Source: Culicoidibacter larvae (lineage in GTDB: Bacteria > Bacillota_I > Bacilli_A > Culicoidibacterales > Culicoidibacteraceae). From it: a DNA stretch of 64,000 nucleotides. Shown here piece after piece: positions 2,885 through 52,628 of the stretch. The stretch's first letter is position 1; every line of letters starts with the position of its first letter. Position numbers and translations under genes: made by a program. The notes beneath the pieces are model-generated. The model did no database searches. It saw only the letters and a program-made list of their open reading frames with translations, and was not told where the DNA came from. The stretch lies in NCBI RefSeq assembly GCF_005771635.1, contig NZ_VBWP01000009.1:1-64000 (forward strand), written 5' to 3'.

Positions 2885-4344
2885 GCTTCTACCAACTCAC
2901 CTTGCATTGACCATGTTCTCGCTTCAGTTACCCGTACTTTGACGATTTTACCGATATAGCTATCATCACCGATAAAGTTGATGGCTTTACTTTGCGGTGT
3001 ATAGCCAGCATAGGTGTTTTCTCCTTTTTGGCTACGGCCAACGACAAGAACGTCAAGTTCTTGTCCAATATAGCCTTGATTGTGCGCCAATGAATCAGCA
3101 TTTACTTTTTGATTGAGTTCTTGAAGTCGTGCCTTCTTCACATCAAGCGGAATATTATCATTCATTCTAGCTGCCGGTGTTCCATCACGCGGCGAATACA
3201 AGAAGGTAAACGCACCGTCGAACTGACAATCGTTTACAAGCGCCATTGTTTCTTGGAATTGCTCGTCAGTTTCGTTTGGAAACCCAACAATAATGTCGGT
3301 TGTAATTGAAACGTTAGGAATTTGATTGCGTAGTTTACCATAAAGTTCACGATAAGATTCACCACTATATTGACGGCGCATCAATTTTAATATGTGATTG
3401 CTTCCCGCTTGAACCGGTAAATGCACATGCGGCATCAGGTTACCACCATTGCTGAGCACCTGAATCATTTCATCAGTAAATTGCCAAGGATGACTCGTTG
3501 AAAATCTTACTCGGGGAATATTGATTTTTTGCACGTCTGCAAGCAGACTTGCAAAAGTATAGCTTCCATCACCCAAGTCACTGCCATAGCTATTTACGTT
3601 CTGCCCCAATAAAGTTATCTCTTGATAGCCACGATCAGCAAGTTCCTGTACCTCAGCTAATACATCTTCCGGTAAACGACTGCGTTCTTTGCCGCGAGTG
3701 TACGGAATAATGCAGTAGGTACAGAATTTATCACAACCATAAGTAATGTTAATCCACCCACGAATATTGTCGTTACGAGTCTTCGGTAAGTTTTCAATAA
3801 TATCGCCTTCTTTAGACCATACTTCAACAACCATTTCCTTACTCATGTAAGCATTATGCAAAATCTGTGGCAAGCGGTGAATATTATGGGTTCCGAAAAT
3901 AATATCTACATGTTGATGTTTAGTCAAAATTCGATTAACTACCGCTTCCTCTTGCGACATACAGCCACAAACACCAAGAATAACTTCTGGATTATTTAGC
4001 TTTAGATGTTTAAGTTCACCAAGTTTACCAAATACTTTATCTTCCGCATTTTCGCGAACCGCGCAGGTATTCAGTAAAATAACATCCGCCTCATTAGTTT
4101 CATCAGTACGAGTGTAGCCCATTGCTTCAAGAATGCCGGCCATGACCTCCTCATCATGCTCATTCATCTGACAACCATATGTCCGAATATAAAATTTCTT
4201 ATTATTGCCTGCTTGCAACATTTCTTCAGGAATAATGAACTCATCTTTTAATACTTGTACTTCACTGTGACGGCGCACCTTAGCATCTTTAAGTGATGGT
4301 GCTTGGAAGTATTTCTGCATATCTTTTGACGTTTTTTCACTCAT
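2881..4344 (-). CDS. miaB: tRNA-2-methylthio-N6-dimethylallyladenosine synthase MiaB
   Basis: Radical-SAM methylthiotransferase that adds the 2-methylthio group to i6A37 of tRNAs reading UNN codons. 487 residues, typical with the N-terminal extension seen in Bacilli. The N-terminal MTTase domain has YGCQMNEHD and two more cysteines ([15 protein letters not shown]) for the auxiliary 4Fe-4S cluster; the radical-SAM cluster is GCDKFCTYC (around residue 205); a TRAM domain closes the protein. AGGTGA precedes the ATG. It is the middle gene of ymdB-miaB-ricA, all three linked to RNA metabolism. Confidence 0.97.
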
Positions 4345-4454
4345 CGAGTCTGGTCACCTCATTTATTCTTACTGCCTGAAATTTATCAGGCAATTGCGTC
4401 ATTGATTGTATCAAAGCTACTGAGCAATTGCAATTTATTGCAATTACTCACAAT

Positions 4455-5234
4455 TTATTGTTCGATGTGAATTGGAACTATTTCAATGGCTTTTTTACTC
4501 TCGTCATCGAAAGTGATAGCAACTGCATTAAGCTGCGTGACTCCTTCAGCAACACTAAACCCTTGCGGCAAGCCGGTAACGAAGCGGTGAATAATAATAT
4601 CCCGATCAACGCCAATCACGCCGTCACGTGGTCCGGTCATACCAACATCAGTTTGATAGGCACACCCCTTAGGTAAAATCCGCGCATCTGCTGTCGGCAC
4701 ATGTGTATGGGTTCCAACTACTGCACTTGCCCGGCCATCAACATACCAGCCAAAAGCAATTTTTTCACTGGTTGCCTCTGCATGCAAATCAACAAATATA
4801 TAGTCAACTTCATCTTTGATTTGTTCATATATAGCATCGAAGCAGGTAAACGGTGAACTTGCCGCGCCATTGACATCAACCATACCAAGCAGGTTGATAA
4901 CTGCAATCCGACTTTTTCCTGCTTTCATCAAGCGATAGCCAACCCCAGGCCAAGCCGCAGGACCATTCGCCGGACGAACCAAGTTATTAGCCTCATCGAT
5001 AAATGAAAAAATTGATCTGTTGTCCCATGTATGATTCCCCATTGTCATAACATCGGCACCCATATCTAAAATCGATTCATAAATTTTTTGATTAATGCCT
5101 TTACCATGAGCCGCATTCTCAGCATTAACAATAATAAAATCCGGTTGATATGCTGCACGCAGTTCCGGAAGTTTATCACTTAATATATCTCGACCGCTAC
5201 TCGCATAGATGTCGCCAACAAATAAAATTTTCAT
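4455..5234 (-). CDS. ymdB: YmdB-family metallophosphoesterase (2',3'-cNMP phosphodiesterase)
   Basis: Cytosolic binuclear-metal phosphodiesterase, 259 residues. The metal-binding series is GDIYASSGRD at the N-terminus, NAENAAHG, MGNHTWD, DLHAEATSEK and GTHTHVPTAD. Bacillus YmdB hydrolyses 2',3'-cyclic nucleotides and influences the RNase Y-dependent choice between motility and biofilm. GAGGGA precedes the start. It lies upstream of miaB with a 110-base gap that contains two AT-rich inverted repeats but no T-run, so readthrough into miaB is likely. RNase Y (rny), its usual upstream neighbour, is not present here. Confidence 0.93.
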   Translation of the reverse strand: MKILFVGDIYASSGRDILSDKLPELRAAYQPDFIIVNAENAAHGKGINQKIYESILDMGADVMTMGNHTWDNRSIFSFIDEANNLVRPANGPAAWPGVGYRLMKAGKSRIAVINLLGMVDVNGAASSPFTCFDAIYEQIKDEVDYIFVDLHAEATSEKIAFGWYVDGRASAVVGTHTHVPTADARILPKGCAYQTDVGMTGPRDGVIGVDRDIIIHRFVTGLPQGFSVAEGVTQLNAVAITFDDESKKAIEIVPIHIEQ

Positions 5235-32984: not shown

Positions 32985-33052
32985 AATAGGGGTGACTAAA
33001 ATGTCACTGTTTAGATTAATAAAAACATGGTATAATTTATGGTTATTTTAGA

Positions 33053-51126: not shown

Positions 51127-51269
51127 ACTTTTCATAGATCTGCACAATAAAACAACAATTAAAAAGTCACACTATTATCTATTAACTAAATATACTTATA
51201 ATTGTTAATTTTGTAGAAATAACTACTTCACATATACTCTAGTCTTCTATACTTGATGAAAAGCAAAAG

Positions 51270-51299
51270 AAAACTGCACACCAAACGGTGTGCAGTTTT
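51270..51299 (-). terminator. Strong hairpin downstream of the peptide gene
   Basis: AAAACTGCACACC / GGTGTGCAGTTTT, 13 bp perfect, four-base loop, then CTTTTGCTTTTC on the minus strand. Probable end of the pheromone transcript. Between it and the peptide gene (51300-51520) I see no well-supported gene. Confidence 0.75.
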
Positions 51300-51522
51300 C
51301 AAGTTGCATATTATGCTGGAATAATTAATTTCCTGCCAAAGCTGCATCGTAATATTCTCATGGGGGAGTATGAATATACTAGCAAAAACATAAATAAATG
51401 GCATTTAGAATTTTATAATACAGGACTAAAACTCTTCAATAAACATATCATACTATTGCAAAAATAGGGAAAAAACTGTATGATAAATCTAGGAAATGAA
51501 AATGAACTTTGTGCACAGCAGC

Positions 51523-51561
51523 TTATTCAAGCCACCAAGCCCATGGCATCAATCCAAACAT
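51523..51561 (-). CDS. Short hydrophobic peptide, candidate Rgg pheromone
   Basis: 12 codons: MFGLMPWAWWLE. AAAGGAG lies nine bases before the ATG. The peptide is divergent from an Rgg-family regulator, carries the Trp-Trp doublet seen in ComS/XIP-type signals of streptococci, and has its own promoter with an operator-like palindrome. Rgg pheromone precursors are usually 15-35 residues, so this is short; it may be secreted as such or trimmed. Detection relies on the ribosome site, promoter and context. Confidence 0.65.
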   Translation of the reverse strand: MFGLMPWAWWLE

Positions 51562-51608
51562 AATATTCAACTCCTTTTGTGCTCAATATTCATCAATCAA
51601 GCACCTTT

Positions 51609-51637
51609 ATGATATCACACTATAATGTGTGTTGCAA
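51609..51637 (-). promoter_or_regulatory. Promoter and operator of the pheromone gene
   Basis: TTGCAA (51632-51637), 17-bp spacer, extended -10 TGATATCAT (51609-51617) on the minus strand. The spacer contains the inverted repeat CACAC-TATAAT-GTGTG (51616-51631), a likely Rgg box. Confidence 0.7.
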
Positions 51638-51698
51638 TAATTATTTATATTCAAATACCATAATCACAATTTCACTATAAAGAAAAAGAGGAAAATAT

Positions 51699-52598
51699 AT
51701 GAAAGATTATCTCTCAGAGCTAGAAAAACTTAATATTGGCGAAGCTTTTAAGGAAATTCGTCAAAATAAAGGGTTAACACAAAGTGATGTAACACCACCC
51801 CACTCTACTCAAAGTATGATCAGTCAAATTGAGAATGAAAATAGACGATCTTACTTTACCACTTTTTTATATATTCTTCATCGCATTAATATGTCTTTTG
51901 ATGAGTTCATGTATATTATTAATGATTACCAATTAACAAGCAAAGCTAAACTTAGGCAGGAAATCCGTATTGCTAATCACAACTTTAATATTGCTGACTT
52001 AAAAAAGGCCTATATCAAATGTGAACAATACATTGAAAATGAACATGATGTTGATATTGTCGTGCAAATGAATAAAATCCTCACTTCGATTTGTGTTTTA
52101 GAACGCGATTATGATCAAGCAATTATACATTCTTTAGATACATGGGCATATTTGCAGAGTCTAGATGAATGGTATTTTGAAGAATTAGCACTCTTCTTAT
52201 CAATCATGGCTTCACTTCCAAGAGAACGTGTTGAGAAAACCAGTCAATATGCGCTGAAAAGAATTAAACTTTATACTGACCTATATCCTGACTCTGAAAT
52301 TGAACATAAATATCTATCTAATCTCGCCGAGTTATATCTGCGCGAAAAAAGCTATGAAAAGGCTTTGAACTATAGTACTCAAGCAATCGAATTATGTTTG
52401 CGTACTAACAAGTTTTTAGTTCTTGGTGACTCTTACATTAAAAGTGGGGTTTCACTTATAAAACTTAACCGAGAAGATGAGGGTTATCGTTACATTGATG
52501 ATGGCTTCGAAATGCATCGTTTAATTAAAAAAGATAAGTTAGCAAATCATTGGTTAGAAGAACTTGAAAACTTACACGACATCAAATACCCGAGATAA
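51699..52598 (+). CDS. Rgg/RRNPP-type transcriptional regulator
   Basis: 299 residues. N-terminal XRE HTH (IGEAFKEIRQNKGLTQSDV...STQSMISQIENENRRS) and a C-terminal TPR-like repeat domain of helical hairpins (NLAELYLREKSYEKALNYSTQAIELCLR, DSYIKSGVSLIKLNREDEGY), as in Rgg, PlcR and Rap. These proteins sense small peptides inside the cell and activate promoters. The divergent peptide gene 138 bp upstream is the likely ligand. AGAGGAAAA precedes the start. Confidence 0.85.
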   Translation: MKDYLSELEKLNIGEAFKEIRQNKGLTQSDVTPPHSTQSMISQIENENRRSYFTTFLYILHRINMSFDEFMYIINDYQLTSKAKLRQEIRIANHNFNIADLKKAYIKCEQYIENEHDVDIVVQMNKILTSICVLERDYDQAIIHSLDTWAYLQSLDEWYFEELALFLSIMASLPRERVEKTSQYALKRIKLYTDLYPDSEIEHKYLSNLAELYLREKSYEKALNYSTQAIELCLRTNKFLVLGDSYIKSGVSLIKLNREDEGYRYIDDGFEMHRLIKKDKLANHWLEELENLHDIKYPR

Positions 52599-52627
52599 AA
52601 AAAGCACCCGTATGCGGGTGCTTTTTT
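52597..52627. terminator. Bidirectional terminator between rgg and cdd
   Basis: A-run, GCACCCG, four-base loop, CGGGTGC, T-run. Confidence 0.92.
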
Positions 52628-52628
52628 C

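Follow-up and report, generated by a model that had tools for sequence, protein, structure and literature searches.

A probable leaderless peptide and Rgg-type regulator pair in Culicoidibacter larvae, with sister pairs in the same genome

Genes and signals of the locus

The window analysed here, a 64-kb stretch of the Culicoidibacter larvae genome, holds a very small gene and an Rgg-type regulator on opposite strands, pointing away from each other (Table 1). The small gene (codons 51561-51523, minus strand: ATG TTT GGA TTG ATG CCA TGG GCT TGG TGG CTT GAA TAA) is a 36-nt frame for 12 amino acids, followed by a stop codon; its product, MFGLMPWAWWLE, is hydrophobic, has the C-terminus WWLE, and is encoded by the only mini-frame in the window that combines a Trp-Trp doublet with a preceding Shine-Dalgarno sequence. 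This gene, with AAAGGAG nine bases upstream, had been pointed out in an initial annotation and is read directly in the sequence. The same annotation described a near-consensus promoter built on TTGCAA and a 17-base spacer. The site exists and its 29-mer is unique in the genome when up to three mismatches are allowed, but "near-consensus" is generous for a 9/12 match with a TG extension, and promoter-like sites of this kind are not enriched in the stretch (13 found against 10.1 expected by shuffling).

Table 1. Positions of the features discussed, in window coordinates unless a locus name is given.
Feature	Position	Strand	Basis or remark
Leaderless mini-gene, proposed signal peptide MFGLMPWAWWLE	51523..51561	-	read directly
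Shine-Dalgarno AAAGGAG of the mini-gene, 9 bases before ATG	51571..51577	-	read directly
Promoter-like site of the mini-gene: TTGCAA, 17 bases, extended -10 TGaTATCAT	51609..51637	-	9/12 consensus match with TG; TTGCAA 51637-51632, TATCAT 51614-51609
Intrinsic terminator of the peptide transcript	51269..51300	-	14-pair stem, then TTTTGCTTTT
Inverted repeat CACAC-N6-GTGTG over both promoters, proposed regulator operator	51616..51631	.	two places in the genome, both at this locus
TATAAT, possible regulator -10 within the inverted repeat; no good -35	51621..51626	+	read directly; role inferred
Regulator Shine-Dalgarno AGAGGA, 6 bases ahead of its ATG	51687..51692	+	read directly
Rgg-type regulator of 299 aa with a helix-turn-helix at the N-terminus and a TPR-like peptide-binding domain at the C-terminus	51699..52598	+	PF21259; profile and fold matches
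Hairpin flanked by runs of A and T, in the gap separating the regulator from the cytidine deaminase gene convergent with it	52599..52628	.	read directly: aaaaaagcacccgtatgcgggtgcttttttc
MLNFLRDI mini-gene, Turicibacter-labelled MAG (G055)	L071 1345-1371		divergent from an Rgg-like gene
MTLLNWFYPRLFPWV mini-gene, Turicibacter-labelled MAG (G055)	L089 1138-1185		divergent from an Rgg-like gene

The peptide transcript runs for about 220 nt beyond the mini-gene and ends at a strong terminator. Its predicted fold has a z-score of -5.1, most of which is due to the terminator, because the value is -1.3 once the terminator is removed. An imperfect inverted repeat (51302-51322 and 51552-51572; 81% over 21 nt, 229 nt apart) pairs the Shine-Dalgarno and start region of the mini-gene with the 3' end of the transcript, and might conceivably permit a translational fold-back of the mini-gene.

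The divergent partner proves to be an Rgg/TPR protein, as had been proposed. It scores 29.7 bits against the Pfam family PF21259, Rgg_C (cut-off 27), and most of the length of the PDB sequences of Rgg2, Rgg3, Rgg144, ComR, PlcR and PrgX is matched by a profile built from 11 related regulators. An AlphaFold model (mean pLDDT 80) returns 42 PDB matches at E <= 0.001 in Foldseek, mostly to Rgg144, Rgg2/3, PlcR, PrgX and ComR, and together with PF21259 it bears out the helix-turn-helix and the Rgg_C/TPR-like domain of five TPR-like helical pairs that mark the Rgg family. The TM-scores are modest, at 0.4-0.6, so that membership of the Rgg family is secure and placement in a subfamily less so. Against TIGR01716 the score of 22.7 lies below the cut-off of 36.9, and the E-value of 6.4e-5 misses the threshold of E < 1e-5 that, along with placement in the RopB clan, is used to recognize LCP receptors (PMC10518010). 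Searches of a collection of genome contigs, of 395 genomes of the class and of viral contigs turned up no relative exceeding about 30% identity. The hairpin behind the regulator is likely a terminator in common with the cytidine deaminase gene.

A CACAC-TATAAT-GTGTG element had also been reported from the promoter spacer, and this was borne out: the spacer reads CACACATTATAGTGTG on the minus strand and CACACTATAATGTGTG on the plus strand. With TATAAT at the centre of the repeat on the plus strand, and the repeat itself within the peptide-promoter spacer, the two divergent promoters overlap, and a protein bound to the repeat would touch both. We propose CACAC-N6-GTGTG as a candidate Rgg operator. 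In the whole 2.5-Mb genome the motif occurs only here and at 51277-51292, 339 bp apart; the latter copy lies within the stem that terminates the peptide transcript and is a possible second operator, but may be a coincidence. No further copies were found in the genome, and no regulon is visible.

The locus lies within an interruption of a gene order. At 9763-52632 of the window, the order phoH-ybeY-dgkA-cdd...era-recO is broken: about 43 kb separate cdd from era, and they contain bglA, an integrase-bearing prophage, a PTS IIB-like gene and the rgg/peptide pair. Within the prophage, an intergenic gap holds an orphan mini-gene with a strong Shine-Dalgarno sequence, MSLFRLIKTWYNLWLF (33001-33051, plus strand), which runs opposite to the surrounding phage genes. 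It resembles the host peptides in style and has no HTH-TPR neighbour, and is possibly a phage mimic or an eavesdropping signal; a search of viral contigs with the back-translated sequence returned the same prophage only, at 100% identity.

Related pairs in the genome and in other taxa

The genome was scanned with a pattern that is blind to regulators (GGAG, 4-12 bases, ATG, 9-39 bases, TGGTGG), keeping in-frame matches that reach a stop within 25 codons; the pattern W[WF/Y] was too loose and was left unused. Five frames remained, two within larger genes and three intergenic, and each of the three intergenic frames adjoins an HTH-TPR regulator: MFGLMPWAWWLE in the window, MFKWIVALMEWWV on contig C1 and MWLSPFIWWHS on C21. 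A profile search found 13 full-length HTH-TPR regulators in the genome, and four more of them have a strong Shine-Dalgarno mini-gene beside them: MFWFLIAWFV (C8), MLNFLKWISTFAWYSV (C2), MLSIFSILVPYIWYWE (C18) and MLRFLLLIWIGH (C10). Thus 7/13 regulators are paired with a hydrophobic peptide of 10-16 residues, and all seven peptides, counted back from the C-terminus, carry Trp at -3 or -4. The remaining six regulators, among them C1:23k and C2:267k, the two closest paralogues within the genome, have no such mini-gene, and a regulator of this kind therefore does not require one.

The association is far from random. Mini-genes were counted if they began with ATG behind a Shine-Dalgarno match of 5 bases or more, spanned 8-20 codons, and encoded one or more Trp in a product with at least 65% of its residues hydrophobic. 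They occur in 7/20 intergenic regions flanking HTH-TPR genes and in 1/128 others (Fisher P = 2e-6), a comparison that covers targeted stretches of the genome with a composition criterion fixed after the first peptides were known; part of the background loci had been chosen by Trp-biased patterns, a bias that runs against the enrichment. In 400 dinucleotide-preserving shuffles of the 20 regions the mean number of such mini-genes was 0.22 and the maximum 2, against the 7 observed; for those with at least two Trp, 6 were observed against 0.02 in the shuffles.

A tree of 17 receptors separates two clades, one that includes the window Rgg and every divergent mini-gene found among the members of the tree, the other with the six convergent pairs. 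Contig C21 encodes a ParA-like protein, and C15, C18 and C21 have a common gene upstream of the regulator, so some of the pairs reside on plasmid-like replicons. On C21 the HTH-TPR regulator convergent with MWLSPFIWWHS lies at 3536-4561 of the extracted locus (L045), and three TACAAGATTTCTTGTA-like palindromes upstream of the mini-gene may be operators for this regulator or for an adjacent HTH protein of 105 aa.

Among plasmid-borne homologues, those closest to the window regulator are Rgg proteins of Listeria, with 24-27% identity (WP_185384148 and WP_014601128; plasmid and chromosomal). Divergent mini-genes with strong Shine-Dalgarno sequences accompany these as well: MLGLMNLVVNVCSNWWIG, of 18 residues ending in NWWIG, upstream of Rgg on plasmids of L. 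seeligeri and L. ivanovii, and MLTLLKSINWLF, of 12 residues ending in NWLF, beside Rgg in L. monocytogenes. Like the window peptide, MLGLMNLVVNVCSNWWIG starts with M[FL]GLM and ends with WW[LI]x. Both mini-genes are unannotated (L139 731-787 and L140 759-797, both minus strand), and both encode candidate cognate peptides for orphan Listeria Rgg proteins. The other homologues examined in Listeria, Macrococcus, Lactiplantibacillus and Streptococcus had no such mini-gene, or a longer, more SHP-like one. In a Turicibacter-labelled metagenome-assembled genome, two Rgg-like genes have divergent mini-genes with strong Shine-Dalgarno sequences (Table 1).

With Trp-Trp or Trp-aromatic mini-genes next to other HTH-TPR regulators of the genome and next to Listeria Rgg genes, the initial annotation's proposal of a peptide-regulator pair gains considerable substance. 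Its placement of the host outside the streptococci also holds, since just two of the 60 relatives drawn share the window's order, which hence is not the large order Lactobacillales.

Proposed mechanism and competing explanations

Overall, we consider it probable that the two genes form a leaderless Rgg (RRNPP) quorum-sensing pair of the LCP kind, rather than one built on a ComS/XIP precursor. The sequence features, the protein family and the non-random pairing of peptide and regulator here and in Listeria are observed, and from them we infer how such a circuit might run, from translation, export and import to binding, the sign of regulation and any targets beyond the pair. By analogy with LCP systems, the 36-nt frame would be translated directly into a mature hydrophobic 12-mer with no precursor. 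The 12-mer would then be exported and accumulate outside the cell, as in LCP (PMC10518010) and Rgg/SHP systems (PMC13361665), and be re-imported through an oligopeptide permease; the genome encodes two OppA-like proteins (SBP_bac_5). Once inside, the peptide would bind the divergent Rgg at its TPR-like C-terminal domain. The regulator, for its part, may sit on CACAC-N6-GTGTG, over the -10 of its own gene and between the -35 and -10 of the peptide promoter, and would repress both overlapping promoters until released or reshaped by the peptide, giving positive feedback. This sign of regulation is suggested by the position of the repeat: repression relieved by peptide is favoured because the repeat lies in the spacer and over the rgg -10, and not upstream of the -35.

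Trp-Trp doublets are typical of trp operon leaders, and the long transcript with its strong terminator is of a piece with a transcription-attenuation leader, in which the tandem Trp codons would sense charged tRNA-Trp and control downstream genes. We regard this explanation as very improbable: no Trp biosynthesis gene follows downstream, where an attenuator would have such genes together with an alternative terminator, the next gene on the same strand is PTS IIB-like and lies behind a second terminator with a promoter-like site of its own, no Rfam match reaches its gathering score, and at C1, C2 and C8 a terminator-like hairpin, shared between the sister mini-gene and its convergent regulator, follows almost directly, with no downstream operon. 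That the frame is open by chance, and that the Rgg senses something else, is most unlikely as well. Some Trp-bearing hydrophobic mini-frame with a strong Shine-Dalgarno sequence arises in 3.3% of dinucleotide-preserving shuffles of the intergenic region, but one with at least two Trp in only 0.18%, and the genome-wide association and the Listeria counterparts argue further against chance.

Two other explanations accept the peptide and assign it a different role. A hydrophobic, Trp-rich product could be a small membrane peptide or resemble a toxin (akin to type I toxins, or else a leaderless antimicrobial), with the divergent Rgg as the repressor of its gene, and the stable transcript fold and the 21-nt repeat between start and 3' end recall the fold-back control of toxin mRNAs. 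We think this unlikely, given that the fold signal comes mainly from the terminator, that 10-16 residues is shorter than most type I toxins, that no antisense RNA family was found with Rfam, and that the mini-genes are strongly associated with genes for peptide receptors. Alternatively, the peptide might serve as a ligand of Rgg inside the producing cell only, an autoregulatory co-factor that is never exported. It has no leader, no exporter was identified here, and the export of LCPs is itself uncharacterised (PMC12700828), but characterised LCPs act extracellularly and are then re-imported (PMC10518010), and the genome has the OppA-like proteins for such re-import; a purely internal role thus seems improbable to us.

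Significance and comparison with known systems

LCPs and WW-type pheromones are each already known, separately. A divergent leaderless Trp-Trp peptide of this lineage, the six sister pairs, the geometry of the clades and the Listeria counterparts were absent from the open literature that we searched, of which coverage was partial. We would give an even chance to a broader reading in which this deep, little-sampled lineage of Bacillota speaks a private multi-channel language: at least seven leaderless peptides with the C-terminal motif W-[WFYI]-x(1,2), two receptor clades with fixed geometry (Rgg-like divergent, second clade convergent), on chromosome and plasmid-like replicons, and a prophage with an orphan mimic or eavesdropper. 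If this is true, leaderless Trp signals predate the Lactobacillales or lie outside them. Seven pairs in a small separate lineage, with the WW and WLF mini-genes of Listeria, widen the range listed for LCPs, and they offer a rule for finding the partners of orphan receptors: a frame of 10-16 codons with a strong Shine-Dalgarno sequence, ending in W-aromatic-x(1,2). With several pairs in one cell, crosstalk and receptor-ligand coevolution become directly testable with short synthetic peptides.

The initial annotation had labelled the peptide XIP-type, a label that fits poorly. The type II ComR/ComS system, whose XIP carries a double Trp (PMC5131902), has in common with the window pair a Trp-Trp doublet in the last residues of the peptide and a related receptor fold of five TPRs. 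ComS, however, is a longer precursor, is encoded directly downstream of comR (PMC5131902) and is processed to a C-terminal 7-8-mer, whereas MFGLMPWAWWLE is a leaderless 12-residue frame, divergent from its regulator, with no competence gene nearby. Rgg2/Rgg3-SHP systems likewise share the receptor fold and a gene for a small hydrophobic peptide beside that of the receptor, but the window peptide lacks the N-terminal basic leader and the SHP-type precursor. The Listeria Rgg genes resemble the window pair in their divergent mini-genes with strong Shine-Dalgarno sequences and differ in their distant sequence and in peptides of 18 and 12 residues.

The closest likeness is to LCPs, leaderless ultrashort frames encoded divergently from their receptor (PMC10518010, PMC13361665), where that receptor is an Rgg protein of the RopB clan, as in S. 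pyogenes RopB-SIP (PMC10518010, PMC6565748). At 12 residues, MFGLMPWAWWLE has the attributes by which LCP genes are recognized: it is ultrasmall, without a leader, has a strong ribosome-binding site, is hydrophobic and aromatic, and adjoins its receptor in the preferred, divergent orientation, the receptor in both cases being an Rgg-type HTH-TPR gene. The differences are a length of 12 residues against the usual 8-10, a Trp-Trp doublet near the C-terminus, a receptor below the TIGR01716 cut-off, sister pairs that are convergent and belong to a different receptor clade, and a host that belongs to none of the families given for LCPs: Streptococcaceae, Lactobacillaceae, Enterococcaceae, Carnobacteriaceae, Bacillaceae and Staphylococcaceae.
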